Translations under genes and position numbers: made by a program | Source: Alphaproteobacteria bacterium | Lineage (GTDB): Bacteria > Pseudomonadota > Alphaproteobacteria > Rhodospirillales > Rhodospirillaceae | Direction: 5' to 3' | DNA length: 34,317 nt | Assembly (NCBI GenBank): GCA_016869315.1 | Contig: VGEM01000003.1 | Location: 1-34,317, forward strand | Shown: piece by piece, positions 2,324 through 30,310 of the stretch | Numbering within the stretch: position 1 is the first letter of the stretch | Layout of the letters: the number at the start of each line of letters is the position of its first letter | Notes under the pieces: model-generated | Database searches by the model: none | Told to the model about the DNA's origin: nothing | Seen by the model: only the letters and a program-made list of their open reading frames with translations

Positions 2324-2337
2324 CAGATAATTTACGC
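2324..2337. promoter_or_regulatory. AT-rich TACGC element at the end of the regulator pair
   Basis: The bases CAGATAATTTACGC overlap the stop codon of the downstream Lrp gene and sit at the upstream end of the 125-base AT-rich gap before the Rieske gene. The gap also holds TTACGAACGTATCGAA, a loose inverted repeat. The match to the element in other gaps is partial and this copy could be chance because part of it is coding. Confidence 0.2.
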
Positions 2338-2838
2338 AGAATTGTCTGCTTCCTCTGGGGTTAAACTGAGGTCAGCTGCCGTTATTCGCGCTACCCGGGC
2401 GTTGTATTTAATCGTCTTCACCGCAATCGATGTCTCGACGTGATGTACGCCGGGAATCGCCAAAATGCGTTCCGAGGCAACCTCGAACAAGCTGTCCAGC
2501 GTATCAAAAAGGCAGACGACCCAAATATTGAATCTGCCCAACGTGATCGTAACTGCGTTGACCAGTGGAACATCCGCAATTTTCGTTGCGATACTGCGCA
2601 CATCTTCGACACAGGCCTGGACGCCTATGAATGCAAGTTTCGAAGTGTTCTCCAATCCGAAATCGGTAATCGCAGTAAAGGTCATTAGCCGTTCTTGCTG
2701 CAACCGTTTGATGCGCCCCCTCACTGTCCCTTCAGTCACGTTGAGGTCTGCAGCGATTTTACGATTCGAAATCCGCGCATCATTGCCCAGAATATCAATT
2801 ATCTGGCGGTCGAGATCGTCGATCTGAACTTTACTCAT
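2332..2838 (-). CDS. Lrp/AsnC family transcriptional regulator (168 aa)
   Basis: An N-terminal helix-turn-helix (residues about 8-60, beginning D-L-D-R-Q-I-I-D-I-L-G, with the recognition region N-V-T-E-G-T-V-R-G-R-I) is followed by an Lrp-type ligand-binding (RAM) domain around T-L-G-R-F-N-I-W-V-V. Such proteins form octamers or dimers and respond to small effectors. Translation is coupled to the paralogue just upstream: its stop at 2840 is one base from this ATG. It has a C-terminal extension of about 15 residues relative to its neighbour. The two regulators are the only recognisable transcription factors in the window, so control of the steroid genes by them is a reasonable guess. The effector is unknown. 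Confidence 0.92.
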   Translation of the reverse strand: MSKVQIDDLDRQIIDILGNDARISNRKIAADLNVTEGTVRGRIKRLQQERLMTFTAITDFGLENTSKLAFIGVQACVEDVRSIATKIADVPLVNAVTITLGRFNIWVVCLFDTLDSLFEVASERILAIPGVHHVETSIAVKTIKYNARVARITAADLSLTPEEADNSA

Positions 2839-2839
2839 G

Positions 2840-3313
2840 TTAATTCCGCGCTTCGATCGGGGCTATGTCGAACTTGTATTTAATGACGTCGACCGCAATT
2901 GCTGGCGTCATCGAATGTATGCCACGCACCTTAGAGAACTTCTCGAAAAGTAACTTCGGAAGCTCATCGAAGTCGCGGAGGACAACGAGCATGTCGATAT
3001 CGTAGCGCCCGGTGACCAAATGCGCCGCGAACACTTCCTCGAACTCGGCAAGCTCCGCGGCCACTTCAGAAGCGGGTCGACCATCGACTTCGATCGCCAT
3101 CTCCATAAGCACATTATATCCATGCGCCGCGAAATCGGAGACGGCCACCACGCGCAGTTTGTCGGCGTCTTCCATGCGACGAATGCGAGTCGATACTGTA
3201 GCGGCGGTCAAACCCAGATTATCGGCAATCTGTTGATTCGTAGCCCTGCCATTAATCCGCAATTGGGCGACGATGTTCCGATCAATATCGTCGACAGTGA
3301 AATTCTCACTCAT
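2840..3313 (-). CDS. Lrp/AsnC family transcriptional regulator (157 aa)
   Basis: First gene of the tandem regulator pair. Residues about 7-62 form the AsnC-type helix-turn-helix (D-D-I-D-R-N-I-V-A-Q-L-R, N-G-R-A-T-N-Q-Q-I-A-D). The C-terminal domain carries V-T-G-R-Y-D-I-D-M-L-V-V, the usual glycine-containing ligand-site strand. The ATG has GAGG eight bases upstream. The two proteins share domain order and some sequence (both have an A-V-K/D-V-I-K-Y-K/N pattern near the end), suggesting an old duplication with divergence and possibly a heteromeric assembly. No TetR-type KstR or KstR2 homologue, the usual steroid repressors of actinobacteria, is present. Confidence 0.93.
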   Translation of the reverse strand: MSENFTVDDIDRNIVAQLRINGRATNQQIADNLGLTAATVSTRIRRMEDADKLRVVAVSDFAAHGYNVLMEMAIEVDGRPASEVAAELAEFEEVFAAHLVTGRYDIDMLVVLRDFDELPKLLFEKFSKVRGIHSMTPAIAVDVIKYKFDIAPIEARN

Positions 3314-3432: not shown

Positions 3433-3450
3433 GACACCTTCCCAGGTGTC
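3433..3450 (-). terminator. Hairpin at the 3' end of the MFS gene
   Basis: GACACC at 3433-3438 and GGTGTC at 3445-3450 form a perfect six-base stem with a six-base loop, overlapping the MFS stop codon on the minus strand. A T-rich run appears only about twenty bases further on, so this is a weak candidate for a terminator; it could equally be an operator-type palindrome before the regulator genes. Confidence 0.25.
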
Positions 3451-4720
3451 ATGCGTGCTTATGGATCAGCGCTCGGTCAAGCTCGATGCGGCGGCTCGCA
3501 AACCATGCAAAAAGCGTGGCAATGAGGCCGATCGGAATAATAATCGTAAGCGCCACTCGTAAAGAGTGTGCGTCGTTGCCAAACGCCTCACTGAGAAGAC
3601 CCGTTGCCCACGGCCCTACGAAATAAGCCAGCAGGGTCGTCACTGCAAGGAACAGAGCTGTAGCAGTAGCGCGGAAACGGGCAGGTAAAATGTATTGCAG
3701 TGTCGCATATATGCCAACCGACCACCCACCGCCCAAAAGGCCGGACGGAATGGCCAGCAACTTGGCCAACGCGAACGAATCAGCCCACGTAGCCGCCAGG
3801 ATCGCGCATGTTGCCGAGCCCATCGCAAACGCCGAGAGCCTCACCGGCCATGCCATACTGTACTTAGCCATACGATCCGAGATCGCGCCAAAACACAGCA
3901 TTCCGACCAATCCCGCTAGTCCAAAATTTACAGCAAACGCGGTTTTCGCGGCCACAGGATCGAGCCCATAACCACGCGTAAGTAACTCCGGCCCCCAATA
4001 CCCGAACGCAACCCCAGAGAGCGCGCCAAGTCCGAAGGCAAACATCATCAGCACGAAACTGGCATTGCGCGCCAATAGAGCGACGAGCGCAGTCATCGCA
4101 ATGGTGGATTGGCTGCGTTCGCCTCTTGGGGCGATCTGTCCGGGATCACGGACGATCATTGCGGTCAATACGCCCAGAACAATGCCGAGCACACCGAGCA
4201 AGTGGAAAGCGAAACGCCAGTCCTGATAAGCCGCGAGCGCCGGCCCGCCCGCTTGACCAATGATTTGGCCAAAATAGGTCGCGAGCCCCAGGATCGCGAA
4301 TGCAATGCCACGTCGTTCAGGCTTGAAATAGTCCGAGAGTAGCGAATATGCGGGCGCAACGAATGCCGCCTCGCCGATACCCACAGTTGCACGCGCCACC
4401 AAAAGGCTCGTCTGCCCGGTCGCCATTCCTGTTGCAACGGTCGCAGCACTCCATAACACGCACCCGCCGGCGATGATCACCACGCGCGAATATCTGTCGG
4501 CCAGACGTGCGAATGGCACACCGAGTACGACATAGAGGACGATAAATGCGGGCCCCATCAGAAGGCCCATCATCGCATCGCCAAGTCCGAACTCTTGCTT
4601 GATTGGTCCAATAAGTCCTGTGATCAGATAACGGTCGGCAAAATTGAAGATTGAGACCATCAGTAAGACGGTCAGGACAATCCAAGGGTTAGTTAGCGTT
4701 CTCGTTTGATCTTGGGTCAA
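3449..4720 (-). CDS. MFS transporter, spinster-like (about 423 aa)
   Basis: A twelve-helix major facilitator protein. The first helix carries N-F-A-D-R-Y-L-I, and the loop 2-3 signature G-V-P-F-A-R-L-A-D-R-Y-S-R matches the conserved MFS motif; this arrangement is typical of the spinster-like branch common in sphingomonads. It probably moves a steroid or a lipophilic acid across the inner membrane, in or out. I place the start at the TTG at 4720, which overlaps the stop of the upstream SDR (TTGA) and gives a short N-terminus before helix 1; an ATG at 4771 would overlap the SDR by 55 bases. It is translationally coupled to that SDR and forms one unit with it. Confidence 0.88.
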   Translation of the reverse strand: MTQDQTRTLTNPWIVLTVLLMVSIFNFADRYLITGLIGPIKQEFGLGDAMMGLLMGPAFIVLYVVLGVPFARLADRYSRVVIIAGGCVLWSAATVATGMATGQTSLLVARATVGIGEAAFVAPAYSLLSDYFKPERRGIAFAILGLATYFGQIIGQAGGPALAAYQDWRFAFHLLGVLGIVLGVLTAMIVRDPGQIAPRGERSQSTIAMTALVALLARNASFVLMMFAFGLGALSGVAFGYWGPELLTRGYGLDPVAAKTAFAVNFGLAGLVGMLCFGAISDRMAKYSMAWPVRLSAFAMGSATCAILAATWADSFALAKLLAIPSGLLGGGWSVGIYATLQYILPARFRATATALFLAVTTLLAYFVGPWATGLLSEAFGNDAHSLRVALTIIIPIGLIATLFAWFASRRIELDRALIHKHA

Positions 4721-5475
4721 TCGCGTAGCACCGATCCGCCGTTGACGTGCCAGACCTGACCATTGATCCATTGGCCGTCGTCCGACGCGAGGAAAGCCAC
4801 CGCGCCAGCAATATCTCCTGGCTGGCCTAAACGAGTATGCGGCAGGGCCGCGAGAGCGGCTTTGGCAAAATCTTCACTGAGATGCTGTTTCAACGCTTCC
4901 GTCATAACAACACCAGGGCAAATGCCGTTGGCGCGAATGCCCTTTTTGCCGAATTTGCGTGCGACGTGTCGCACCAGTGCGTGAATCGCATTCTTCGTCA
5001 TCGGATATGCCACCTGAATCGGATTACCCGAGATCGCTGCTCCCGATGATGTGTAAATCATTGTTCCACTGCCGCGCTCAAGCAACACAGGCAATGCCGC
5101 TTGCGTCGCCAGGAAATGGCTCTTGGTGTTTATCGCAAATGAATTGTCCAACACATTCTCGGGACAGTTTAGAATGTCGACATCGCCCTCCGTGCCGCCT
5201 GCAAGATTGGAATGGTAAAAATCCAAGCTACCGAACTCGTCTAGAGCGGCCTTCACGATCGCGGCTTGGGAAGCAGCCTTGGTTCCGTCGAGATACATGC
5301 CGATAGCCTTACCGCCACCGCTGCGGATGGAGACAGCGATTTCTTCCGCCCATGCCTGATTGATATCGCCAATGACGACAGCAGCACCCTCTTCGGAAAG
5401 CCTGCGCGCTGTCGCTGCGCCGATACCGCGGCCCCCGCCCGCAACGACGCCAACTTTTTTTGCTAAGCCGCGCAT
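4717..5475 (-). CDS. SDR family oxidoreductase with atypical NNAG motif (252 aa)
   Basis: A classical-length SDR with the cofactor loop A-G-G-G-R-G-I-G at residues about 12-19, an acidic residue after strand 2 (I-G-D-I-N) that favours NAD, a catalytic Ser in Y-T-S-S-G and the pair Y-P-M-T-K. The structural motif NNAG is replaced by S-N-L-A-G-G, which is unusual. The C-terminal I-N-G-Q-V-W-H-V-N-G-G is intact, so the fold is expected to be complete. It is the first gene of a two-gene unit with the transporter and is divergent from the SDR at 5603. Hydroxysteroid dehydrogenase is the likely role; the position is unknown. Confidence 0.9.
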   Translation of the reverse strand: MRGLAKKVGVVAGGGRGIGAATARRLSEEGAAVVIGDINQAWAEEIAVSIRSGGGKAIGMYLDGTKAASQAAIVKAALDEFGSLDFYHSNLAGGTEGDVDILNCPENVLDNSFAINTKSHFLATQAALPVLLERGSGTMIYTSSGAAISGNPIQVAYPMTKNAIHALVRHVARKFGKKGIRANGICPGVVMTEALKQHLSEDFAKAALAALPHTRLGQPGDIAGAVAFLASDDGQWINGQVWHVNGGSVLRD

Positions 5476-6418: not shown

Positions 6419-7927
6419 CTACAGAGATGTGGGACGCCGGCCAATCCATGGCGCTGCTCGTTCCAATTGACCTGCAAGACGGAACAAAGACGCTTCGTCG
6501 CCATAACGGCCAGTGAACATTATCCCAATCGGTAGAGCGGTCGAAGATGTGGCAAGCGGAATCGACATAGCTGGCTGGCCAGTCATATTGGCGAGTTGCG
6601 TGAAGGGCGAGAAGGTCGCAATGCGCTGCGCCCACTTATTGAAGTCCGATTCGCTCGATAGGCCAATCCAACCCAGTTCCGGCGGCAGTGCGGCGACGGT
6701 AGGAGAAAGTATCACGTCGTAGTCATTCATAAACCCGGCCATCTCAATGGCCGCCGTCTGCATCGTGCTATTCGCACGAGCGAAATCGATACCACTGGTC
6801 TTCTGGCCGTAGTCAACGAAAGCGAGTGTGATCGGCTCTAATAAGTCCGGACCTGGAATTAAGCCGGTCAACTTGGCGCGATCAAGCACGTCAGCGGCGA
6901 TCGACGAAGCACTGAGCACGAAACTTGCGGCTCCTAACGCCGCGGCATCCAGTTTGGGCGCGGCTTCCTCGACGTGATGCCCAAGACTTTCGCAAAGCCG
7001 CGCTGCAGTCCGCGCCGCTTCCTCGACTTCCGGATCCACAGGGCTGCGCGAGATCGGATTCAGCATGAGCGCGATTCGCAAAGCCCCTGGCTCCTTGTCA
7101 ACCTGAGAGAGGAAACTCTCTGTAGGAGTGGGCGCCGCGTAACGCGATCCAGCCTCGACACCATGCGTTACGTCCATAATCGCAGCCGAATCTCGGACGG
7201 TGCGCGTGAGAGCGTGGTGCACAGAAAACCCGCCCCAACCTTCTGTGCGTGGCGGGCCCATCGGGATGCGACCTCGGCTTGGCTTCATCCCGAATAGTCC
7301 GCAGCATGAGGCGGGGATACGGATCGATCCGCCACCATCGGTGGCATGCGCGGCCGGTATGACACCAGCAGCGACCGCAGCGGCGGCTCCGCCTGAAGAT
7401 CCGCCTGCAATACGAGAAAGATTCCACGGATTCCGAGTTGCCCCGGTCAGCTTATTCTCGGTTGTCCCGGTCAGGCCGAATTCAGGCGCAGTGGTTTTTC
7501 CGAAGATGACGAAGCCCGCGCGTTGCGCGCGCAGCACGAGTTCCGACGTTACAGTGGGACGATACCCGTGGTAGAAACGGCTGCCGTTTTCCGTGACCTC
7601 GCCCGCAATATAGGTGTTGAGATCCTTGAGTAACCACGGCACCCCCGTGAACGGTCCTTGCGGGAGGCCGCGCGCGATTGCTGCCCGCGATAATTCGTAA
7701 TGCTGTTGCGCTATGAAGTTGAAGCGCGGATTAAGCGACTCCGCTCGCGCGATGGCCTCCTCCAGCACCTCGTAGGGTGACACTTTTCTCTCGCGGATCA
7801 ATTCTGCCAATCCAAGTGCGTCGTGAGTGTCGAGCGGACTTGTGCGGCGTGTAATCGCGCTGGCGCTATCAGCCATACTCAATGTCGATGCCGAAGTCGC
7901 GGCGATCATGTCTCGACGACCTATCAT
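6419..7927 (-). CDS. Amidase signature family protein with a Tat-like N-terminus (502 aa)
   Basis: An amidase-signature serine hydrolase. The catalytic Ser-cisSer-Lys triad can be placed at K101 (L-L-K-D-L-N), S177 (A-G-G-S-S-G-G) and S201 (T-D-G-G-G-S-I-R-I-P-A), with the usual 24-residue spacing between the serines. The ATG at 7927 (GGAAAA upstream) is preferred to a longer frame that would run into the Rieske gene. The N-terminus M-I-G-R-R-D-M-I-A-A-T looks like a twin-arginine signal, though the hydrophobic stretch is weak. It is last in a unit CoA ligase-amidohydrolase-Rieske-amidase. In sphingomonads, amidases of this family have been linked to bile-acid side-chain degradation or to deconjugation; which applies here is not visible. 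Confidence 0.9.
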   Translation of the reverse strand: MIGRRDMIAATSASTLSMADSASAITRRTSPLDTHDALGLAELIRERKVSPYEVLEEAIARAESLNPRFNFIAQQHYELSRAAIARGLPQGPFTGVPWLLKDLNTYIAGEVTENGSRFYHGYRPTVTSELVLRAQRAGFVIFGKTTAPEFGLTGTTENKLTGATRNPWNLSRIAGGSSGGAAAAVAAGVIPAAHATDGGGSIRIPASCCGLFGMKPSRGRIPMGPPRTEGWGGFSVHHALTRTVRDSAAIMDVTHGVEAGSRYAAPTPTESFLSQVDKEPGALRIALMLNPISRSPVDPEVEEAARTAARLCESLGHHVEEAAPKLDAAALGAASFVLSASSIAADVLDRAKLTGLIPGPDLLEPITLAFVDYGQKTSGIDFARANSTMQTAAIEMAGFMNDYDVILSPTVAALPPELGWIGLSSESDFNKWAQRIATFSPFTQLANMTGQPAMSIPLATSSTALPIGIMFTGRYGDEASLFRLAGQLERAAPWIGRRPTSL

Positions 7928-7955
7928 ACCGTTTTCCAATAGGGCGGCTTTGATC

Positions 7956-9038
7956 TCATGCCTGCGCGTAGTAGCGCGAATAGTATTTGCGGAATTGGGG
8001 AATCGGCCCATCACCGTCGCAAATGATCGGGTTAGGTTGATATTTCTGCCTGTCCCAAACCACCTTATCCTGATCAAACTGCTTGCAGATGTCGCGGATC
8101 AGAGCTTTGGCAACACCAGCGCGCTCCCCTTCGGCCTGCGCGCGTGGCTGCGTAAAGCAGAAACGCGCATGCACATGGTCAAGCTCCACCGGCGTCACGC
8201 AAGCAACGAGCAGCGTTTCTGAGATTCCGGTAAAGCGCGTCCAACTCTGGCCTGGCCCCATCGTGTCGTAGCTAATGCCTCCATCGACCTCGCCCCACGG
8301 CGTGCCCATTTTCGCCTTCACATCTGCGCCACGTCCCCACTCACCCCAGCGCAATTCGCCAAGCGGCACGTTCGCCGTGCCGTGGACAAATTTGAAATGC
8401 GCCACATCCACGCCGTTCTCGGCCATGTTTTGGATCGATCCCCAGACGTTCCATTCATGGATTTCGTAATCGGTCCACGCAGGATTGGCCGCCTCTGGCA
8501 GGTTCTCGACCTTGAATAGCGGTTCTATATCTTCCGGGTGATACCACATCCAAATCCACCGGTTGGCTTCGATGACGTGCCACGTCCGCGTGCATTTGCG
8601 CCTCACTTGAGGCGGAATGATTCGGGCGTAGGGAATTTCCTTCACGACGCCTTCCTCACCGTCATAGCGCCAGGCGTGAAATGGACATTCCAGCAAATTG
8701 CCACGCACCTTGCCGCCATGCCCCATGTGCGCGCCAATATGTTTGCAATAAGCATCGATAATGCGAACCTTGCCGTCCTCACCGCGCCACATCGCAAAGT
8801 CCCTAGCGAAGTAGCGCAACGGTTTAACCTGGCCAATGGCGAGGTCTGCCGATAGTTCGATCGGATACCATCCGAATGGAAATCCGATATTGAGACTTCG
8901 CTCCTCCACCGAAGCGCGCCCCTTTACTTCGGCAAGGCGCCAGTCGATCAAATCCTGGCCACGCAACTTTTCGAGAATCTGCCAGACAGCAACCGGGGGC
9001 GTGCGCGCATCGGTAGCAACGGCTTTGATGTCGGCCAT
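7956..9038 (-). CDS. Rieske 2Fe-2S oxygenase of the side-chain module (360 aa)
   Basis: Rieske ligands are C98/H100 (CKHIGAHMG) and C118/H121 (CPFHAW); the non-haem iron site is N-G-V-D-V-A-H-F-K-F-V-H with D211, H214 and H219, plus an acidic residue in the late segment F-D-Q-D-K-V-V-W. It is KshA-like in overall plan but distinct from the oxygenase at 1124, with an extra N-terminal stretch of about 50 residues. The ATG at 9038 has a strong GGAGAAA site; an upstream TTG at 9053 is rejected. It lies between amidohydrolase and amidase genes, so it may oxygenate the side chain or C17 region rather than C9. Its reductase is not encoded nearby. Confidence 0.88.
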   Translation of the reverse strand: MADIKAVATDARTPPVAVWQILEKLRGQDLIDWRLAEVKGRASVEERSLNIGFPFGWYPIELSADLAIGQVKPLRYFARDFAMWRGEDGKVRIIDAYCKHIGAHMGHGGKVRGNLLECPFHAWRYDGEEGVVKEIPYARIIPPQVRRKCTRTWHVIEANRWIWMWYHPEDIEPLFKVENLPEAANPAWTDYEIHEWNVWGSIQNMAENGVDVAHFKFVHGTANVPLGELRWGEWGRGADVKAKMGTPWGEVDGGISYDTMGPGQSWTRFTGISETLLVACVTPVELDHVHARFCFTQPRAQAEGERAGVAKALIRDICKQFDQDKVVWDRQKYQPNPIICDGDGPIPQFRKYYSRYYAQA

Positions 9039-9055
9039 AGGTTTCTCCAGCAATG

Positions 9056-9925
9056 TTATTTGAGATCGAAAACCCTAATCGCGTTCTCGCGCAGGAATTT
9101 GGGCCACACGTCATCCTTCAAGGGGACGCTCTGCATGTCAGAAAAAATACGATCTAGGCTGAGTCCCATCGGGAAGTAGCCCGCATAAATAATCTTGTCG
9201 GCACCGCGCGTGTTCGCATAGTCAATAATCGCTTTGGGATAGTGCTTGGGCGCGAAGGCACTGGTCGAATAATAGAGGTTTGGCCACTTTAGCATGAGCT
9301 TCACCGCCAGAGCTTCCCACGGCTCGGCTCCGTGACGCATCACGACTTTCAGATCGGGAAAGAACCAACATACTTCATCGAGATACTCGACCTTTTGCGT
9401 TTCCATCGGAATACGTGGACCAGGTATGCCGGCGTTCAGCAGTATCGGAATGCCAAGTTCTACGGCGCACGTGTAGAGTGGAAACATGTATTTGTGGTTG
9501 ATCGCCACCTGCGGCAGCGTCCCAGCCGGAAACACGCTGATTGCCGATAGCCCGACCTCGGCGTGTACGCGTTTAATACGGCGGAGTTCGTCCATGCCGT
9601 TATTCGGATTGCAGGGCAGATCAAAGAAGAAGCGGTCACCGTATTTTTCCTTAGCACGATAAGATGTCGCGTTGTCATTCCAGCCCACCAGCGCTTTATC
9701 GATATTGAAACGATCCATCTGATCGACGGTCCAAGCAACATAGTCATCGACTTTCCGCGTTTGCGGGATGTCCTTGAACATGTACTGCGCGGGCATCGCA
9801 AACTGGTCGAGCGTTTGCCGATCCTTGATCAGTGGGCGGAAGGGAGCGAACCACTCGGCGCGATCATCGGCTTCCGGAATACCGAGCATCGTGTCGATGA
9901 TACGAATGTGGGCGGGCATTCCCAT
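9056..9925 (-). CDS. Amidohydrolase-2 fold protein lacking the usual metal ligands (289 aa)
   Basis: Overall sequence follows the ACMSD-like amidohydrolase-2 barrel: an I-I-D strand at the start, I-P-I-L-L-N-A-G-I-P in the middle, V-V-M-R-H-G-A-E-P with H198, and a K-I-I-Y-A-G-Y-F-P strand near residue 247. The metal motif DxHxH is, however, D11-T-M-L; the ligand His after the central strand is N164; and the usual catalytic Asp of the F-G-S-D-Y-P strand is Tyr 250. Only H198 of the standard set is left. The protein may act without a metal, use another chemistry, or be structural. The ATG follows GGAG by eight bases, directly after the CoA ligase stop, so it is coupled to that gene. Function within the side-chain module is unknown. 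Confidence 0.85.
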   Translation of the reverse strand: MGMPAHIRIIDTMLGIPEADDRAEWFAPFRPLIKDRQTLDQFAMPAQYMFKDIPQTRKVDDYVAWTVDQMDRFNIDKALVGWNDNATSYRAKEKYGDRFFFDLPCNPNNGMDELRRIKRVHAEVGLSAISVFPAGTLPQVAINHKYMFPLYTCAVELGIPILLNAGIPGPRIPMETQKVEYLDEVCWFFPDLKVVMRHGAEPWEALAVKLMLKWPNLYYSTSAFAPKHYPKAIIDYANTRGADKIIYAGYFPMGLSLDRIFSDMQSVPLKDDVWPKFLRENAIRVFDLK

Positions 9926-11611
9926 TCAAGGTTCTCCAATATTATTCGGCAGCAATAGCTTCGGCCATTCGGCACGAAGCGCGACCTTGTCGATCTTGCC
10001 AATATGATTGCGGGGTAACGGCTTACTTAAGAAAGCGACCTGACCCGGCGCCTTGTATCGCGCGAGCCTTTCGCCAACCCACTGGATCACTGCTGTTTCA
10101 TTCCGTGAATCGCCTACCACGACTGCGACTAGACGTTCGCCGAGCCGCTCGTGAGCGATACCGAATGCTGCGCATTCAGTGACTCCGGGCATTTCGCCCA
10201 GCACACGCTCTACCTCAGCGCAATAAATGTTCTCGCCACCAGAAATGACCATGTCTTTCACACGATCAACAATGAAGATGTAACCTTCTTTGTCGAGATA
10301 ACCGACATCGCCGGTTCGCAGCCAGCCATCAGGCGTGAATGCCGCGATGGTTTCTTGCGGCCGGTTCCAATACCCTTTCATTACCAATGCGCTGCGCACG
10401 AGGATCTCGCCGGTTTGGCCAATGGGCAACCCCAAACCGTCGGGACCGGCAATCCGCACATCCGCCAACGGCAACACGCGGCCCGCCGAAGCGCGGTTGC
10501 GGATAAAATCCTCGCCCACTGCTAGAGCGAACGCGCCCGATGTCTCAGTCATGCCGTAACCGGTGCCCATTACCGCTTGCGGACAAGCCGCCCGCACTTG
10601 GTCGAGCAAATTAACAGGCAGCGCTTGCCCGCCGGACGCTACGTTGCGCAGCGAGGACAAATCGGCATCCTTCAGTCGTGCGCGATGCAGTAGGTCCCAC
10701 AACATTGTCGGGACCGCCGAGAATTGGGTTATCTTCTCATGCGCGATGAGGCGAACCGCCTCTTCGGCATCCCAGCGGCGCATGATAACCACCTTTGATC
10801 CAGCCAGCAGCGGCGACAGGAATACCGAACCGAGCCCGGAAATGTGGAATAGCGGATAGACCAACAGAGCGGCCTGGCGAGGCAAGTTGGCGATAATCGT
10901 TTCGACCGGCACGCCGTGCGTCTTAGCCATATTGTGCATAACCATCGTGCCAGAAAGTTGCGCTGCCATCAGGCCGGTGATTAGACTTCTGTGAGACAGG
11001 ATGGCGCCTTTCGCACGACCCGTAGTCCCGGATGTGAAGAGGATCGCGCATGCGTCGTCGGCTCGAGCGACATCAGGCTCAAGGGCAGGCCTCGTCTCAC
11101 CGCGCATGATCTCGGATGACTCGAATGGCTGGGTTAGATCCAGTATCCGTCCGGTGTAGCCCCCGACACGAATCAATTTCGCACGGGTCGTATCTGCCAG
11201 GACGATATGGGGCGTTGCATCGTCGAGCATCGCAACAATCTCGCCCGATGCGCCGCGACTATTGAGCAACACCGCTACGCCGCCCGCCTTCATCACCGCC
11301 AGGAACGCAACCATCCACTCCGCGCGATTGCGCATGCAAATCGCTACTCGATCACCACGACGAATTCCCAACATCGGGACGAGTTGATCGCGCCATGCGA
11401 AGAGTTCTTCGAACGAAAGTCGCCGCTCGACGCCGCTCGACGAAAAGTCGACAACGAAAGTTTTATCGCCATGCCGCAGGCGCGCATTCTCAATCATCAA
11501 ATTAAGGTGGGGCGCGGCATTGACGAACTGGCGCACGCCGCCAATTTCTCCCAGCTCAAAAGGCGTTCCAGGAGCAGTCACTGCGGCAAAAACGGGATCG
11601 ATTAGAATCAT
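9926..11611 (-). CDS. AMP-dependent acyl-CoA ligase (561 aa)
   Basis: A class I adenylate-forming enzyme. Core motifs are the P-loop L-F-T-S-G-T-T-G-R-A-K-G, the A5 region G-Y-G-M-T-E-T-S, the A7 hinge W-L-R-T-G-D-V-G-Y and the C-terminal P-R-N-H-I-G-K-I-D-K with the catalytic Lys. These enzymes activate a carboxylate with ATP and CoA. In steroid pathways the substrates would be the bile-acid or sterol side-chain carboxylate or the C/D-ring propionate (FadD3 role); position in a module with amidase and Rieske genes favours the side chain, but FadD3 is not otherwise found here and so remains open. The start at 11611 lies nine bases after the preceding SDR and has no strong ribosome site. Confidence 0.93.
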   Translation of the reverse strand: MILIDPVFAAVTAPGTPFELGEIGGVRQFVNAAPHLNLMIENARLRHGDKTFVVDFSSSGVERRLSFEELFAWRDQLVPMLGIRRGDRVAICMRNRAEWMVAFLAVMKAGGVAVLLNSRGASGEIVAMLDDATPHIVLADTTRAKLIRVGGYTGRILDLTQPFESSEIMRGETRPALEPDVARADDACAILFTSGTTGRAKGAILSHRSLITGLMAAQLSGTMVMHNMAKTHGVPVETIIANLPRQAALLVYPLFHISGLGSVFLSPLLAGSKVVIMRRWDAEEAVRLIAHEKITQFSAVPTMLWDLLHRARLKDADLSSLRNVASGGQALPVNLLDQVRAACPQAVMGTGYGMTETSGAFALAVGEDFIRNRASAGRVLPLADVRIAGPDGLGLPIGQTGEILVRSALVMKGYWNRPQETIAAFTPDGWLRTGDVGYLDKEGYIFIVDRVKDMVISGGENIYCAEVERVLGEMPGVTECAAFGIAHERLGERLVAVVVGDSRNETAVIQWVGERLARYKAPGQVAFLSKPLPRNHIGKIDKVALRAEWPKLLLPNNIGEP

Positions 11612-17585: not shown

Positions 17586-18030
17586 GCAGCGCGCGTGCCG
17601 CCTCAGAACCATCCAGCACTTGATTATCGCGTTTTAGCACGCACCACGATTCACCTTTGCGCACCATTTGCCAGCGATTGGCCGAAACCCGGTGGACTTC
17701 GAACGCTTCGCCCACACGACGAAACACCACGCTATGCCCATACGCGACCGCAACGTCGCCATCGAGTTGTAGCATCACTGGTCCCAGCAAATGCGCGCAG
17801 CCGTCGGCCATCAATTGGCGATGCATCGCTCCATCGAGCAGCGCAGCAATCGCGTCGCGCCCGCGTGCTTCGGCCATGCCGCCAACGGCATAACTCCCCT
17901 CATCCGCCCACAATGCAGCCGCGCCGGTAGCATCGCCGCTGTCTGCCAGTGGACCATAGCTCGCGATAAGAGTGCGGATCGCTTCGCGGTCCTCTAAGGC
18001 ACGCAATCGAGCAGCGAAGTCATCAACCAT
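17554..18030 (-). CDS. SnoaL/NTF2-like protein at the end of the hsa operon (158 aa)
   Basis: A single SnoaL-like domain with the helix L-E-D-R-E-A-I-R-T-L-I followed by Y25 and D30, and H80 in C-A-H-L-L-G. This is again the Tyr/Asp/His pattern of BaiE-type dehydratases; length is close to BaiE. It is not closely similar to the 211-residue SnoaL protein at 16053. Its ATG overlaps the stop of the flavoprotein gene by eight bases, so it is the last cistron of the hsaA operon. A dehydratase or isomerase acting on a ketosteroid is plausible; the NTF2 fold also includes delta5-3-ketosteroid isomerase, which is the main alternative. The 3' end overlaps the convergent SDR. Confidence 0.83.
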   Translation of the reverse strand: MVDDFAARLRALEDREAIRTLIASYGPLADSGDATGAAALWADEGSYAVGGMAEARGRDAIAALLDGAMHRQLMADGCAHLLGPVMLQLDGDVAVAYGHSVVFRRVGEAFEVHRVSANRWQMVRKGESWCVLKRDNQVLDGSEAARALLNLPPDRRPR

Positions 18031-19483
18031 GTGCAGCCTTCCGCCCGGCCTTCCGGCCGAAAAATGTGCAATCGGCGAGACTTAACCCCGACGAATAGCC
18101 ATGCCCCCAGGCGGGGAGTCCGCTTGTGCAGCGTCCTGCTGCAAACAGACCGGCAATAGGCGCGCCCGACCTATCGAGCACTTCGCCAGCGATTGAGGTG
18201 CGGAGTCCACCCAATGTGAAGAAACTAAAATAGCTGGTGGCGAAATTGAGTTCGAGCGCCACAAAAGGCCCCTGATCGAGCGGCGTGAGAATTGGCGTTC
18301 GCTTGTGGAACAGCGGATCACGCCCTTCACGCGCATGGTGATTGTAGAAATTCATCGTCGAGGACAACGTGTCTTCAGCCATCTCCAATTCTCGTTCAAC
18401 CTCCTCCCATGTCTCGCCCGTCGCGGCTATAGAAATGCGGGCAAAGCTTGGTGGCTGCGCGAAGTGTGCGCCATCCAGTAGGAGATAAACGCATGGACCC
18501 GGCTGATCGATCATCGCCCGGCTGACCCTGCCATGATAGCAATCCTCGTTGATGAAGCGCTGGCCTTGGCCGTTCACAAACACGCCGTAAGCATGGCTTT
18601 CTGGGATAATCCACGGACACGTCGTGAAGAACTGATCCATGTGAATCGCGTCGCCTCCGGCGCCCACGCCGAGTTCAATACCTGACCCATCATCCTTGTC
18701 ACCGATGGGATCGTTGATTCGAAACGTTTGCGGGCAATATTTGCGTCGCATTGCTTCGTTCATCACGAAGCCACCGGTGGCCAAAACAACACCGCGGTCA
18801 GCGCGTACATAGCGCTCTCGATTATCGATGCGCACGACCAGCCCGACGATACGATTTCCATCGGCGATGAGGGAAATGGCACGCGCATCGGTCACAACCT
18901 CAACACCATTGTCACGCGCCCGCACTTCGAGGATGTCGACCAGCGGCCTGCCACCGCCCCAGCCCATATGGCGGATCACGTGACCGCGCGGGGCCGGCGT
19001 AGCGATATCGCAAAAGGGCACAGCCGTTTCGCTGCCCGACCAAATCAAGGTTGAATCATCGCTCGGCTCAATATGCTTGCCCGCTAGATAATTGCCGCGA
19101 TAGGGCACGCCCTGCGCCTTGAGCCAAGCAAAGTGATCAACTGCTTCTGCGGCATACAAGTCGCACTTTGCTGCATCGGCACACGGTCCGCCAGACGCTT
19201 TCAGATAGGCGGCAAAAGCTTCGGTCTGATCTTCGAAGCCGGCCGCACGCTGCACTTCGGTACCGCCACGCCCACCTATATAAATTTCTCCGCCCGAGAG
19301 CCCAGAAGCGCCACCGCTGCCTGAATTGCGCTCGAACACCAACACCTTGGCTCCAGCTTCAGCGGCCTCGATTGCCGCACAAGCTCCCGCTGCGCCGAAC
19401 CCAATGATGACGACATCGCACATCATGTCCCAACCTGGCACGTCGGCAACGGGGGTGGGACGATGCAGCGACAACTTAGTCAC
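18023..19483 (-). CDS. FAD-dependent ketosteroid dehydrogenase, delta4-type-like (486 aa)
   Basis: FAD motif [10 protein letters not shown] near residue 25, with the downstream [16 protein letters not shown]. The C-terminal segment [18 protein letters not shown], followed by T-F-F-G-R-K-A-G, resembles 3-ketosteroid delta4-dehydrogenases (5-alpha or 5-beta acting) more than delta1 enzymes, which carry Y-P-G-x-G. It would introduce the 4,5 double bond into saturated 3-ketosteroids. The start is a GTG that overlaps the hsaF stop by eight bases, placing it in the hsa operon. Stereospecificity is not readable; a bile-acid context would favour a 5-beta substrate. Confidence 0.85.
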
Positions 19484-20516
19484 GGCGCGCTTTCAGCATG
19501 TCGAGCGCGACATCGACGATCATGTCTTCTTGCCCACCCACCATCTTGCGGCGTCCGAGTTCGACAAGGATTGCGCGAGTGTCGAGCCCATAGTCTTGGG
19601 CGGCCTTCTCGGCATGGCGCAGAAATGAGGAATATACACCCGCATAACCAAGTGAGAGCGTCTCGCGGTCGACCCGGACCGGGCGATCTTGCAACGGACG
19701 CACCAGATCTTCCGCGGCATCCATTAACTGCATCACGTCGCAACCGTGATTCCAGCCCTTACGGTCGGCAGCAGCAATAAACACTTCCAACGGCGCATTA
19801 CCCGCGCCAGCGCCCATGCCGGCGAGACTCGCATCGATCCGCACTGCGCCTTCCTGCGCGGCGACGATCGAATTGGCAGTGCCAAGCGACAAATTATGAT
19901 GCGCATGCATGCCGCGTTGCGTCCCGGGCTTTAGCACGCGGTCATACGCTTCGAAACGTGCGCGCACGCCGTCCATGTCGAGCGCACCGCCGCTGTCAGT
20001 GACATAAACACAATGCGCGCCATAGCTCTCCATCAGCAGAGCTTGCTTCGCGAGCAGTTCGGGCTCGATCATATGGCTCATCATTAGGAACCCAGAGACA
20101 TCCATACCCAAATCGCGCGCTAAACCGATGTGTTGCTTCGAAACGTCGGCCTCCGTGCAATGCGTCGCCACTCTGACCGAGCGTACGCCAATATCATAAG
20201 CGTAACGCAAATCCTCGACGGTACCGACCCCAGGTAAGATTAGTGTGGTGAGGACACTGTTCTCGATGACGTCAGCTACTGCCTCAAGCCACTCCCAGTC
20301 GGTATGAGCACCGAAGCCGTAGTTGAAGCTCGCGCCTGATAACCCGTCGCCATGGGCAACTTCGATCGCGTCTACACCGGACTGGTCGAGCGCTTTGGCT
20401 ATCGCGCGCACATGATCGATGCCGTACATGTGGCGAATGGCGTGCATTCCGTCACGCAACGTCACATCTTGGATGTAAAGTTTTTCGCCTGCCTCGACGT
20501 TGAACTTGCCAGTCAT
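19476..20516 (-). CDS. hsaF: 4-hydroxy-2-oxohexanoate/valerate aldolase (346 aa)
   Basis: A class II (divalent metal) aldolase of the BphI/DmpG/HsaF family. D-V-T-L-R-D-G-M-H carries R21, D22 and H25, and M-H-A-H-H-N carries the metal ligands H204 and H206. It splits 4-hydroxy-2-oxo acids into pyruvate and an aldehyde, which is channelled into the partner dehydrogenase. In steroid degradation the substrate is the six-carbon product of ring A, giving propanal. The ATG overlaps the stop of the dehydrogenase gene by four bases, fitting the known stable complex. Length is normal for the family. Confidence 0.95.
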
Positions 20517-21457
20517 GGTAGCTCCGCGGCAGCAGTCATCCGGCGCATCGCGATCAATTCCCCCGTGGCCTTGGCGGCCGCAGTCATGATGTCGAGGTTG
20601 CCTGAATAACAGGGTAGATAATCACCTGCGCCTTCGACCTCGAGATAAATACTCGTCTTAATACCAGTGAATTCGCCCATGCCAGGAATGCGTAGCCGGC
20701 TGTTGTCACCGAAGCGTTCGAATTGCACTTCCTGTTTCAGTCGATAGCCGGGCACATATGCCTGAACCGTTGCAACCATCGCTTCTACGGATGCGCGTAT
20801 TGCAGCCTGATCCGCATTTTCCGAGAGCGTGAACACTGTGTCGCGCATGATCATGGGCGGCTCAGCCGGGTTAAGGATAATGATTGCCTTGCCTCGCGTC
20901 GCGCCGCCAACCTGCTCAATCGCGCGTGCGGTGGTGCGCGTGAATTCGTCGATGTTTGCGCGGGTTCCCGGGCCAGCCGAGCGTGACGAAACTGAAGCAA
21001 CGATCTCGGCATAGTGCACCTTGGCGACCCGACTCACTGCAGCCACCATTGGAATGGTTGCTTGACCGCCGCACGTGACCATGTTGACGTTGGATTCGCT
21101 TAGATGCGCGTCCATGTTTACTGACGGCACCGTAAATGGGCCTATGGCGGCTGGCGTGAGGTCCACTACGTTAATGCCGTCGGCGCGCAAAACTGCATCA
21201 TGCGCCTTATGGGCATAGGCAGATGTTGCATCGAAGGCGATTCCGATCTCCGGATAGCACGCGAGTTTCTTCAAACCCTCGATTCCGTCGAGCGTCGTGG
21301 CGATGCCAAGCGAGCGCGCCATCGCAAGCCCTTCGCTTGCAGCATCAATACCGACAACCGCCGCCAACTGCATGTTCTGCGGATTCTTGATCATCTTTAT
21401 CATCAAATCAGTGCCGATATTCCCGGGTCCGATGATGACTGCCTTTACGCGTTTCAT
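20513..21457 (-). CDS. hsaG: Acylating acetaldehyde/propanal dehydrogenase (314 aa)
   Basis: Family BphJ/DmpF/HsaG. The N-terminal Rossmann motif is I-I-G-P-G-N-I-G at residues 8-15; C129 in M-V-T-C-G-G-Q is the thiolating cysteine. The enzyme oxidises the aldehyde released by the aldolase to acyl-CoA with NAD and CoA, here probably propanal to propionyl-CoA. The ATG at 21457 has GAGGAAA in front and is preferred to 21487, which lies inside hsaE. It overlaps hsaE by a few bases and hsaF by four, a typical coupled trio. Confidence 0.95.
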
Positions 21458-21467
21458 GCTGTTTCCT

Positions 21468-22250
21468 CTAAATGAAGCGAGCGACACAGCAACCGATACC
21501 GTACAATGTCATTTCAAACACATCGCCCTTCACCGCAGGCTCTAGCGGAACAAGCGATCCTGACAGGATTACATCGCCGGCATTAAGCGTGACGCCGTAA
21601 GCCCCAAGGGTATTGGCCAGCCACGCTACCGCATGCGCGGGATTGCCTTGAACCGCACTACCCAGCCCCTCAGACAACGGCGCGCCATTTTTAGTGACGG
21701 TGACCCGAAGCCTAGGCAAATCATGCGCACGTGGACTGGCGCGAGTGTCGCCCAGCACAAAAACGCCGCATGACGCATTGTCTGCCACGGTATCGATGAT
21801 CGAAATTTTCCAATTTCGAATGCGACTATCGACGATCTCGAAACAGGGCGCGATGCTTTCAGTTGCAGCGAGAACATCAGCGGCCGTAACGCCGGGACCA
21901 GATAGCGAGTCCCTGAGAATGAATGCAATCTCGGCCTCAGCGCGAGGGGCGATCAGGGCTTTTTCGCTAATACAAATGTCACCATCGGCCTGCATCCAAT
22001 CGGTTAGAAAACCGAAATCTGGCTGGTGCACATTCAGCATATCCTGCACCGCCTTTGAGGTGACACCAATCTTCTTACCGATTACCCGTTCTCCCGCAGC
22101 GAGACGGCGCCCCAGGAAATCGAGGCTGATCGCGTAGGCATCGTCGATAGTCAGCGCAGAGTCGCGCTCGATAAGAGGCGGCACGGTATATCTTCCGCGC
22201 AGCGCAGCGAAAAGCTCAGAACCGAACCGCTCAGCTTTAATGTTACTCAT
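21468..22250 (-). CDS. hsaE: 2-hydroxy-dienoate hydratase (260 aa)
   Basis: A member of the 2-oxopent-4-enoate hydratase/fumarylacetoacetase-related family (BphH/HsaE). Visible family features include G-K-K-I-G-V-T-S-K, the acidic A-R-A-E-A-E-I-A-F region binding the metal, and I-V-D-S-R-I. It adds water to the dienoate released from ring A by HsaD and hands a 4-hydroxy-2-oxo acid to HsaF. The ATG at 22250 overlaps the hsaB stop (ATGA) and replaces a longer frame that would run back into hsaB. Length is standard. Confidence 0.94.
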
Positions 22251-22753
22251 TGGTATTGCCCATTCAAATAAATGAGCGGCGGCACTTCGCCACATGCGCG
22301 CGCGTCACGCACCAAACCAATAGTGTTACTATGGCTGCGGTATTCGACTTCGCCATCAACGAGGAAGTCGATCATCGTCACCCCGTCCTCCAGCCAAGGA
22401 ATTCCGGAGTTGCTCGCCCGCCATTTGCCGAAGCCAAACCGTTCCGTGCTCGCTGCCGCGCCACGGAAGGCAAAAGGTACTGGCGCATACCTTCGTTCAA
22501 GCAGATTGCCGGTGAAGGATATACCTCGCCGGATCGCGCGCCGGATGCCGGTACCGCGACTGACGCAGACGAGCAACGAAAGTGGATCTAGCGAAACCGA
22601 CGTCACCGATGTCGCTGCCATGCCGGCCTATTCTCCGTCGCGATGGCAAGTCACGATCGCCACGGTGGAAGCCAACCGCCGCATAGCCGCGCGAAAATTT
22701 CCACACAGCAGTCCTACTTCACATTCGCCATCTTCCGTCTCACCGATACTCAT
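22247..22753 (-). pseudogene. hsaB: Flavin reductase component of the 3-HSA monooxygenase, interrupted by TAG
   Basis: Read from the ATG at 22753, overlapping the hsaD end, the frame gives 168 codons of a small flavin reductase (HsaB/HpaC type): residues 19-37 follow the family start (N-F-R-A-A-M-R-R-L-A, then V-A-I-V-T-C-H), and after codon 42 comes A-G-M-A-A-T-S-V-T-S-V-S-L-D-P, the flavin-binding strand. Codon 42 itself is TAG (22628-22630). Start and stop both fit the operon overlaps, so one base makes the difference between intact and broken. Translation could restart at the ATG at 22621 (124 residues), which would lack the first strand. Possible explanations: true nonsense mutation, sequencing or assembly error, or restart. 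If broken, another flavin reductase must serve HsaA. Confidence 0.88.
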
Positions 22754-23576
22754 CGAGGAAGGCTACCGAATAAGAGTTGAATTCACTGGCGCGTTCGACC
22801 TGCACCCAATGCCCGGTACGGGCAAAGGTAAGGCAGCGAGCGTGGCGGCACTGATCAAGGAAGTAGCGCGCCCCGCTTTCAGGGCAAAATTCGTCGTTCT
22901 GGCCCCACATCACGAAGATGGGCTGATTGATCTCGCCGACGCGGGGACCAAGATTTGGCGTCCGCATCCGCACCAGCACATCCTTTGGCTGTGTGCGCGC
23001 CACCGCAAAGCGTTCCTCGACCAGCGCTCCCGGTATTTGCGACACAAAATCGGGATGGACCAAATTAGATATCAGTCGGCGCTGTTCTTCGATGGTGAAA
23101 TTGGCACTGCCAAAACCCGACACCATTTTAGCGATGCCCGGCATCGTGAAATAGCTCGCCTGTTCTTCGATACATCCCGGCGCCATCAGGATCAGTGAAT
23201 GGCAGAAGCTGGGATGGTCGAGTGTCATCTGGATGGCAACTCCGCCGCCAAGAGAGTTGCCGACTATGCTGGCCGTTTCCACGTCATGCGCAACTAGCGC
23301 TTCGTACAACGTGTCAGTGAATAATTGGAGCGTATAGTCGATACCTTCGGGCTTGGAGGATTGGCCATATCCGATCAGGTCGGGCAAAATCACGCGATAT
23401 CCACCAGCGACGAACGCTTTATAATTTTGCCGGAAGTTCGAGGCCCCTGATGCACCAGGACCGCTGCCATGGATGAATACGACAGCCGGTCCTTCTCCAA
23501 CGGTTTTGAGGTGAATCTTGTGACCGCCTGAAACCGTGTAGGTCGCTTCCGCTAGATCCTTCACGTCGACGCTCAC
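22740..23576 (-). CDS. hsaD: Meta-cleavage product hydrolase, alpha/beta fold (278 aa)
   Basis: A serine hydrolase of the HsaD/BphD group. S108 lies in V-G-N-S-L-G-G, D228 in W-G-Q-N-D-E and H256 in T-G-H-W-V, forming the catalytic triad; the oxyanion region is H-G-S-G-P-G-A-S-G. It hydrolyses the C-C bond of the ring A cleavage product (4,9-DSHA), giving the C/D-ring propionate and a hydroxyhexadienoate. The start is GTG at 23576, overlapping the hsaA stop (GTGA). The next gene, the interrupted hsaB, starts inside its last codons. Confidence 0.94.
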   Translation of the reverse strand: MSVDVKDLAEATYTVSGGHKIHLKTVGEGPAVVFIHGSGPGASGASNFRQNYKAFVAGGYRVILPDLIGYGQSSKPEGIDYTLQLFTDTLYEALVAHDVETASIVGNSLGGGVAIQMTLDHPSFCHSLILMAPGCIEEQASYFTMPGIAKMVSGFGSANFTIEEQRRLISNLVHPDFVSQIPGALVEERFAVARTQPKDVLVRMRTPNLGPRVGEINQPIFVMWGQNDEFCPESGARYFLDQCRHARCLTFARTGHWVQVERASEFNSYSVAFLDEYR

Positions 23577-24787
23577 AGAAAATTGAAGGTAGGTGATTCG
23601 CTCATCATCGTGCCGATCACATCGCCCGTGCGATTATTGGGATCATTCGCGACATGGGCTCGCGCCGCGTTAAGATCGAGCCAAGGCTGAATGATCGCGC
23701 TGCTGGTATAAATTGCGCGTCCGCCCAGCAGCTGCATTACGTCGTCGATAAGATCGACCATGCGGCGAACAACAGTGGAGGACTGATACGCAAACATGGC
23801 CCGCCGCTCCATCGGAATTGCTTTGCCCTGGTCCGCAAGGCTTATCAACTCCTCGAAAGTCAGCTGTTGAACGACTTCCATTTCCTCAAGCTGCGAGTAC
23901 GCCTTAGCCATAGCTGCCTGCAGCATAGGATCCTGCTTTGAGGCCTTGCCGGTGTTTGTTGAAATGCGGCTTCGCATGATCTCCATAGCCGCCTTTAACG
24001 CAGCACGCGCGCCGCCGAAAGCCGCAGTCGAAACCGAGCGGACGAACACTTGCGCCCAAGGCAATCGGTACAACCGCGCAGTATTCACTGCCTGTCCTGG
24101 ATTTTGACAGAGGAAGCCATCGACAGCGCGGTGAGTGCGATATTCAGGAACGAAGACGTCATTGACGATGATGTCGTGACTGCCAGTCCCTTGCAGCCCA
24201 AAGGTGTGCCAGACGTCTTCATCGATCGTATAATCGTTGCGCGGCAGAAGGAAAGTGCGCATATCGAATGGGTCACCATCGCTCTTCGCCGGCACGATGG
24301 CGCCCAACAACACCCAGCGGCAATGCGTCGATCCAGTCGAAAAGCCCCAACGCCCTGAAAGGCGGAAGCCGCCTTCGACACGCGTAACCTTGCCAACCGG
24401 CTGATACGAAGAAGACACGAGCGTCGCAGCAGCCCCGCCCCAGACCTCTCGCTGCGCACGGTCATCGAACAGCGCTATTTCAAAAGGATGGCATCCTAAT
24501 ACGCCGTACATCCAACCCGTCGACATACAACCTTCGGCCAACAGTTTTTGTATGTCGAAGAAGACGTTGGGATGCATTTCATAGCCGCCCCAGCGCCGTG
24601 GCTGGAGGACGAGGAAAAACCCTGCCGCTTGCATTTCGGCAATCGTTTCAGCCGAGACGTTGCGGGCCTGCGTACACTGACGCGAGCGCGACCGCAGCTT
24701 TGGGATCATAGCGCGAGCTCGCTCGACCAGAATTTCGGGCGTCGGAATCACGGCTGCGCCAAGCTCCATTGCAAAAACGGTAGCCAT
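23573..24787 (-). CDS. hsaA: 3-HSA monooxygenase oxygenase component, acyl-CoA-dehydrogenase fold (404 aa)
   Basis: A group D flavin monooxygenase related to HsaA and HpaB-type oxygenases with the acyl-CoA dehydrogenase fold: A-E-T-I-A-E-M-Q-A-A-G-F, R-W-G-G-Y-E, S-G-R-W-G-F-S-T-G and H-T-F-G-L-Q-G-T-G-S-H-D are typical. It hydroxylates 3-HSA to the catechol 3,4-DHSA using reduced flavin from HsaB. The ATG has GAGGAGGG in front. It is the first gene of an eight-cistron minus-strand operon in which nearly all junctions overlap, and is divergent from the SDR-hsaC operon across 193 bases. Confidence 0.93.
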   Translation of the reverse strand: MATVFAMELGAAVIPTPEILVERARAMIPKLRSRSRQCTQARNVSAETIAEMQAAGFFLVLQPRRWGGYEMHPNVFFDIQKLLAEGCMSTGWMYGVLGCHPFEIALFDDRAQREVWGGAAATLVSSSYQPVGKVTRVEGGFRLSGRWGFSTGSTHCRWVLLGAIVPAKSDGDPFDMRTFLLPRNDYTIDEDVWHTFGLQGTGSHDIIVNDVFVPEYRTHRAVDGFLCQNPGQAVNTARLYRLPWAQVFVRSVSTAAFGGARAALKAAMEIMRSRISTNTGKASKQDPMLQAAMAKAYSQLEEMEVVQQLTFEELISLADQGKAIPMERRAMFAYQSSTVVRRMVDLIDDVMQLLGGRAIYTSSAIIQPWLDLNAARAHVANDPNNRTGDVIGTMMSESPTFNFL

Positions 24788-24873
24788 TTCCGACCCTCCT
24801 CAATCCTCAATTTTAGATTTGAGCACGGCAGTTTCACGTCGTGCCCAGCGCACATAGTCGTAGAATTTTTTGT

Positions 24874-24889
24874 CATTTTATACGCAAAC
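24874..24889. promoter_or_regulatory. TACGC element between the two large catabolic operons
   Basis: CATTTTATACGC at 24874-24885 matches the element found in other gaps and is followed by AAACCGTCAATTG. It lies centrally in the 193-base gap between hsaA and the SDR-hsaC operon, where one site could control both directions. No convincing -10/-35 pair is visible on either strand. Nothing else gene-like is found in this gap. Confidence 0.4.
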
Positions 24890-24980
24890 CGTCAATTGAA
24901 AAGCGATTTAATGTAAGATAGTGTGTTTTTTTCCGTGCTGAAAGGCGCGAACACGTAACCAAACACGGGAAGACAGCAGC

Positions 24981-29236: not shown

Positions 29237-29239
29237 GCC

Positions 29240-30301: not shown

Positions 30302-30310
30302 GACAGACTC

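Follow-up and report, generated by a model that had tools for sequence, protein, structure and literature searches.

Degradation of bile salts and other steroids by sphingomonads is well known, yet the removal of the side chain in these bacteria has stayed obscure because the known aldolases are absent. In Sphingobium Chol11, the closest described system, the side-chain locus encodes SclA (Nov2c230), a monooxygenase (Nov2c228), the amidase Bsa (Nov2c227), Scd4B (Nov2c222) and Scd4A (Nov2c221) (PMC8399759, PMC12175502). SclA and Scd4AB act on the C5 side chain, and hydroxylated steroids, of which Nov2c228 is the suspected source, build up in delta-sclA and delta-scd4A mutants (PMC8399759, PMC12175502). 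Chol11 lacks Shy1, Sal1, Sad and Sal2 and has no known aldolase, and its side-chain route is largely unknown; Sal2/Ltp2, a second ligase and a second ACAD are likewise reported absent (PMC8399759, PMC12175502). The retro-aldolases Sal and Ltp2 of other systems employ Tyr-based acid/base catalysis without a metal or a Schiff base, with a pair of Tyr residues plus an oxyanion-hole His in Ltp2 and Tyr and Cys in Sal (PMC12329534). In Caenibius tardaugens, a gene of the bsdI cluster annotated as an 'amidohydrolase' is up about 21-fold on cholate (PMC12882949). No reaction assigned to the protein encoded between SclA and Nov2c228 was found in the literature searched. Nov2c229 itself is named in none of the papers found; two AEM 2021 papers on the Chol11 locus lay outside that search, so an earlier proposal of its role is possible.

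Gene content of the locus

The window (the whole stretch of DNA analysed, 34,317 nucleotides) contains a steroid 9,10-seco degradation cluster with two KshA-type Rieske oxygenases, KstD-like flavoproteins and many SDRs. The features relevant here are the following.

2332..2838, minus strand: Lrp/AsnC regulator, Nov2c223 position
2840..3313, minus strand: Lrp/AsnC regulator, Nov2c224 position
3449..4771, minus strand: MFS transporter, Nov2c225 position
4717..5475, minus strand: SDR, 7alpha-HSDH-like, Nov2c226 position
6419..8077, minus strand: amidase, Nov2c227 position (bile-salt amidase Bsa)
7956..9053, minus strand: KshA-like Rieske oxygenase, Nov2c228 position; the true start may be further downstream
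9056..9925, minus strand: AHS, our name for the amidohydrolase-superfamily protein P0001, a metal-ligand-free Amidohydro_2 barrel protein of 289 aa (PF04909 profile, alignment, predicted fold)
9926..11611, minus strand: AMP-forming acyl-CoA ligase, SclA/CasG-like (steroid-24-oyl-CoA synthetase), directly upstream of AHS
18023..33167, both strands: steroid-nucleus degradation genes (Pfam; Hsa and Ipd names by family and order)

The genes in 18023..33167 include KstD-like and HsaF/G/E/D/A-like genes on the minus strand, and HsaC-like, IpdA-like CoA-transferase, EchA20/IpdC-like and acyl-CoA dehydrogenase genes on the plus strand. The ligase scores 371 bits against NF052580 (CasG), below the cut-off of 750, and the amidase ORF overlaps the Rieske ORF, the actual amidase start probably being located within the ORF. 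AHS is the second gene of a tight minus-strand run, with its ATG abutting the ligase stop and the Rieske ORF only 2 nt further on, in full agreement with the tight operon described in the initial annotation. We identify the AHS module with the sphingomonad locus for the C5 side chain of bile salts.

An amidohydrolase-superfamily protein that has lost its metal ligands

The AHS gene runs on the minus strand from an ATG at 9925 to a stop ending at 9056 (289 codons), and there is no open frame on the plus strand of 9056-9925. The PF04909 (Amidohydro_2) profile matches residues 81-288 with 69.9 bits (cut-off 26.4), whereas NCBIfam models gave zero matches to AHS and 50 relatives. By descent, as indicated by both the profile score and the (beta/alpha)8 barrel, AHS belongs to the amidohydrolase superfamily PF04909; it is an altered form within a known superfamily, and the fold itself is not new. 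The codons of the diagnostic residues, all on the minus strand, are as follows.

9893..9895: D11, which corresponds to the D of DxHxH, invariant
9887..9889: M13, at the position of the first HxH His, M in 37 of 40 sequences
9881..9883: G15, at the position of the second HxH His, G in 37 and S in 3 of 40
9434..9436: N164, at the position of the strand-5 ligand His, variable
9332..9334: H198, the strand-6 His, kept and invariant
9176..9178: Y250, at the position of the strand-8 Asp, invariant throughout the clade

Residues 11-15 read D11-T12-M13-L14-G15, and in the alignment columns 11/13/15/164/198/250 show D-M-G-N-H-Y in AHS against D-H-H-H-H-D in canonical relatives (for example, L018, L024, L026, L028, L029, L032 and L061). 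Since these relatives align His at 13, 15, 164 and 198 and Asp at 250, the residue register is correct, and minus-strand translation together with the alignment reproduces the residues read in the initial annotation (D-T-M-L at 11-14, N164, H198 and Y250). From knowledge of the ACMSD-type mononuclear enzyme family, we take columns 13, 15, 164 and 250 to be the metal ligands and column 198 to be the strand-6 catalytic, second-shell His. On this basis, AHS has lost all four metal-ligand positions and retained the catalytic-type H198; the initial annotation was thus right about the loss itself and understated its extent in writing that almost all ligands had gone, given that H198 belongs to the second shell. 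Compared with metal-dependent enzymes of the ACMSD/LigJ type, AHS has M13 and G15 in place of the HxH of strand 1, N164 (N, C, F or T across relatives) in place of the strand-5 His and Y250 (40/40 sequences) in place of the strand-8 Asp, and shares only the strand-6 His (H198, also in 40/40). These residues are incompatible with the usual metal-dependent amidohydrolase activity.

Conservation and phylogeny of AHS

A whole-protein genome search identified AHS orthologues with 39-66% identity in other families of the class, and a pattern-seeded scan yielded at least 577 AHS loci, of which 80 were kept. Among these, identity is mostly 78-90% in Sphingomonadaceae, about 70% in Hellea and its relatives in the Hyphomonadaceae, and about 60% in MAGs of gamma- and deltaproteobacterial or myxococcal origin; a PS1-clade bacterium is represented as well. 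The scan patterns contained H198 and Y250, which biases residue conservation in that set, and conservation was therefore rechecked on 40 sequences from the whole-protein search, obtained without patterns. D11, R98, N108, R171, Q177, D183, H198, E201, W203, K209, Y219, T221, S222 and Y250 are invariant in all 40, and Y250 is present in every orthologue down to about 40% identity. Column 13 contains M in 37 sequences and L or F in the other three, so that among the residues whose conservation the initial annotation had left to be seen in homologues, D11 and Y250 are fixed and M13 nearly so. The recurrence of Y250 and M13 across orthologues exceeds chance. Column 164 is occupied by N in 33, C in four and F in three of these sequences, and by N in 70, C in 15, F in three and T in two of 90; a role of N164 as a functional replacement ligand is ruled out by this variability.

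Among close Novosphingobium copies of AHS, dN/dS is 0.03-0.13; only these pairs were used because dS has reached saturation when the window gene is compared with its nearest relatives. Together with the invariant residues, these values rule out a decaying gene, a pseudogene or a lone mutant. The AHS protein is under strong constraint, and position 164 lies outside any fixed site. The catalytic face is only slightly better conserved than the rest of the barrel (0.79 vs 0.75). On the whole, the metal-site loss, the retained barrel, the lack of decay and the tight operon of the initial annotation are all upheld, the absence of decay by the low dN/dS and the invariant pocket residues, and it is the weight placed on N164 that has to be withdrawn.

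In the tree, the AHS family forms a single clade with the state D-M-[GSN]-[NCFT]-H-Y, within which L038 and L122 have F or L instead of M. The neighboring PF04909 clades show either partial losses (such as D-V-N-Q-H-D) or a full canonical site, and the replacement of the strand-8 Asp by Tyr is the mark of the AHS clade. The D-V-N-Q-H-D clade includes L002 (G000 C402), L003 (G000 C12) and about 30 loci among L004-L060; its members have lost the first two His and the strand-5 His and retain the strand-6 His and the strand-8 Asp. This clade is large, so partial loss of the metal site is widespread in the neighboring region of PF04909. We also observe an actinobacterial relative with 30% identity on a Mycobacterium branderi plasmid (L145:7935-8828), with the state D-W-N-N-H-D and thus a retained strand-8 Asp, which is located near enoyl-CoA hydratase, thiolase and OB-fold genes and is a possible outgroup for the loss of the Asp.

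Predicted fold and pocket

AlphaFold2 (50 sequences) predicts an eight-stranded (beta/alpha)8 barrel for AHS (pLDDT 85.3, pTM 0.86), with strands at 9-14, 75-81, 99-104, 128-131, 161-164, 194-197, 217-222 and 245-248 and poorly predicted short segments at 44-48 and 134-136. The best PDB matches have the same fold, so the rest of the barrel is indeed conserved, as initially stated. D11/M13, N164, H198, T221/S222 and Y250 lie within the C-terminal ends of strands 1, 5, 6, 7 and 8, respectively, or immediately beyond them, and in the model are predicted to occupy the usual pocket of the barrel fold. The fold and profile neighbors that follow the best match, BB4693, are 2,6-dihydroxybenzoate decarboxylase, LigJ (2gwg) and ACMSD.

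There is no second strictly invariant His in a non-redundant set of 19 AHS sequences. An alternative complete metal site was considered and, at the level of sequence and secondary structure, is ruled out, the invariant D71, D183 and E201 forming no HxH-like set. Nor is there an invariant Lys at a pocket strand end (K209 and K213 are on the helix 204-213 and position 227 is K or R), which makes a Schiff-base (class I) aldolase unlikely.

Gene neighborhoods and probable correspondence with Nov2c229

The order of ten genes in Sphingobium TomTYG65 (ligase, AHS, Rieske, amidase, SDR, MFS, Lrp, Lrp, acd, fadE30) fits the Chol11 numbering one for one, and the window retains the equivalents of 230 to 223. 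This match places AHS at Nov2c229, between SclA and Nov2c228, and AHS indeed lies between the SclA and Nov2c228 Rieske genes of the Bsa-Scd4 locus, as members of the Nov2c229 group should. Thus, by gene counting along the published locus numbers, we infer with good support that AHS is the Nov2c229 orthologue and acts in the removal of the C5 side chain from bile-acid-type steroids.

In 53 of the 63 loci with enough flanking sequence, AHS is immediately preceded by the ligase and followed within 2.7 kb by the Rieske gene. Among 301 genomes of one sphingomonad-type family, AHS is present in 38 and the Rieske partner in 31, all 31 of which have both; the chance probability of this 31/31 overlap is 7.5e-36 with phylogeny ignored, so it is not a significance value. 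The remaining seven of the 38 AHS genomes, without the Rieske partner, all have more divergent AHS copies. AHS, still annotated as an amidohydrolase, is consistently found alongside the SclA ligase and the orphan Rieske hydroxylase of the pathway.

Other arrangements are found as well. Sphingomonas jatrophae (L119) has the order ligase-AHS-Rieske-ACAD-ACAD. Genes for a GMC oxidoreductase and an AraC regulator come after such compact ligase-AHS-(Rieske)-ACAD-ACAD operons (L118:13218-15760, L119:14662-17230). Croceicoccus estronivorus (L113) has AHS-Rieske-ACAD-ACAD followed by ligase, MaoC and alpha/beta hydrolase genes; the genes are arranged as in bsdI, the cholate-induced cluster of Caenibius tardaugens, a likeness that applies to the remaining genes given that L113:9255-9947 had no Pfam match corresponding to the TetR gene of C. 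tardaugens. Often, a further CoA ligase that is only distantly homologous to the SclA-like protein (24-29% identity) is encoded immediately before the SclA-like gene, between it and an SDR gene (L062, L066, L069-L071, L073-L075, L082-L085 and others); the window has no such gene. In at least 15 Sphingobium and Novosphingobium strains (H1-H15), including the TomTYG and TomMM strains, the AHS gene is carried on plasmids of 0.5-1.3 Mb; the locus of Sphingobium TomTYG65 (L144) is on one such plasmid.

Origin of the contig

The window is an entire contig (C3 of G000) of a genome bin of 577 contigs. Its GC content is 0.57, whereas 20 other contigs of the bin have 0.59-0.65, and its tetranucleotide distance is 0.23-0.25, against at most 0.164 among the same 20. 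AHS and its Rieske partner are present in one of 73 genomes of the family to which the bin is assigned, and neither is found in the other 72. Given this outlying composition and absence, the contig is either mis-binned sphingomonad-like DNA or the result of recent horizontal transfer. The argument on the AHS family is unaffected by the origin of the contig because it is based on many independent genomes.

A possible role in side-chain cleavage

The retro-aldol or hydratase-like enzyme and the accessory protein suggested in the initial annotation are both still candidate roles. The pathway context favors a C-C lyase step, and AHS is a well-placed candidate for the step missing from steroid side-chain degradation in sphingomonads. 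Tentatively, we infer that AHS is the missing lyase. SclA would form the C24-CoA thioester, Scd4AB would introduce the delta-22 double bond to give the delta-22 enoyl-CoA, and the Rieske enzyme would hydroxylate the steroid, by hypothesis at C17. AHS might then cut the C17-C20 bond by a vinylogous retro-aldol reaction involving neither a metal nor a Schiff base, with the invariant Y250 and/or H198 accepting the proton of the 17-OH and pocket residues such as R171, T221 and S222 holding the thioester dienolate. Such cleavage of 17-hydroxy-delta-22-24-oyl-CoA would give a stabilized dienolate thioester and a 17-ketone, so that the products would be the 17-ketone and a C5 enoyl-CoA, and this single step could stand in for the two Sal/Ltp2 cycles that are absent from sphingomonads. 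As a hypothesis, this would be the simplest chemistry that uses a ligase, a single dehydrogenase, a single hydroxylase and just one more enzyme. Taken as a whole, the reading of AHS as the Nov2c229 orthologue and the missing metal-free lyase of C5 side-chain removal has a probability of roughly 0.38. Counted against it are the MaoC hydratase in the C. tardaugens-type cluster of L113, which is suited to ordinary beta-oxidation, the seven of 38 AHS genomes that lack the Rieske gene, and the conservation of the catalytic face that barely exceeds that of the barrel.

The presence of the Rieske gene only alongside AHS (31/31, adjacent genes) and the loss of all metal ligands would also fit a pseudoenzyme that assists the Rieske oxygenase or the CoA ligase by binding the steroid or serving as a chaperone. 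This is unlikely given that the invariant barrel-mouth residues R171, H198, W203, T221, S222 and Y250 resemble a catalytic or substrate-binding set and that AHS is also found without the Rieske gene. A Sal-like retro-aldolase that converts 22-hydroxy-24-oyl-CoA (the hydrated delta-22 compound) to acetyl-CoA and a C22 aldehyde, with the Rieske enzyme serving elsewhere, would fill the place of the Sal1 missing in Chol11 by the chemistry of CtSal and would agree with the MaoC gene of the L113-type cluster. We consider it rather unlikely because the C3 remainder is left unaccounted for when Sal2/Ltp2, the second ligase and the second ACAD are reported absent in Chol11, and because the ligase-AHS-Rieske-amidase stretch of the window contains neither MaoC nor enoyl-CoA hydratase.

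AHS might instead be a hydratase that replaces Shy1, also missing in Chol11, and adds water to the delta-22 enoyl-CoA, LigJ (2gwg) being both a fold and a profile neighbor. Going by family knowledge, LigJ depends on its zinc ligands, all of which are missing in AHS, and we know of no precedent for the hydration of a CoA thioester by an amidohydrolase fold, which makes this possibility improbable. LigI-like hydrolysis of steroid esters, lactones or conjugates, or hydrolysis of glyco/taurocholate, is suggested by the annotation and by the fold matches 2ffi and 4dia, and the latter reaction has been proposed for the cholate-induced 'amidohydrolase' of C. tardaugens (PMC12882949). Yet LigI retains D248 where AHS has Tyr, all metal ligands for amide hydrolysis are missing, and the bile-salt amidase Bsa is already encoded in the neighboring position, so a hydrolase is equally improbable. 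The metal-free lyase accordingly remains our preferred, if tentative, reading of AHS.

Comparison with known systems

At the level of gene content, the AHS locus resembles Chol11 Nov2c221-230 and the bsdI cluster of Caenibius tardaugens, with which it shares SclA, the Rieske monooxygenase, the Bsa amidase and Scd4AB. The best PDB match of the protein, the uncharacterized BB4693 of Bordetella bronchiseptica (3irs, 3k4w; profile E 4e-22, TM 0.75), likewise has the strand-6 His and no strand-8 Asp, but has only about 22% identity to AHS, has Ala at the position of Tyr250 and lacks the PGPR and STSAFAPK motifs. ACMSD, gamma-resorcylate (2,6-dihydroxybenzoate) decarboxylase and the 4-oxalomesaconate hydratase LigJ share the barrel fold and the strand-6 His with AHS; they are zinc or other metal enzymes, whereas AHS has none of the four ligands. 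LigI, the 2-pyrone-4,6-dicarboxylate (PDC) lactonase, is a metal-independent enzyme of the amidohydrolase superfamily, and PDC hydrolases of this type (4dia, 2ffi) are among the fold matches of AHS. The strand-8 catalytic Asp that LigI-type lactonases require (Asp248 in LigI) is Tyr in AHS (Y250), and the motifs differ. Finally, Sal1, Sal2 and Ltp2 have a thiolase fold complexed with a DUF35 hydratase domain, in contrast to the TIM barrel of AHS, which is not homologous to them. What AHS might share with these enzymes, as a proposal only, is the retro-aldol cut of hydroxylated steroid CoA thioesters with a Tyr as the acid/base.
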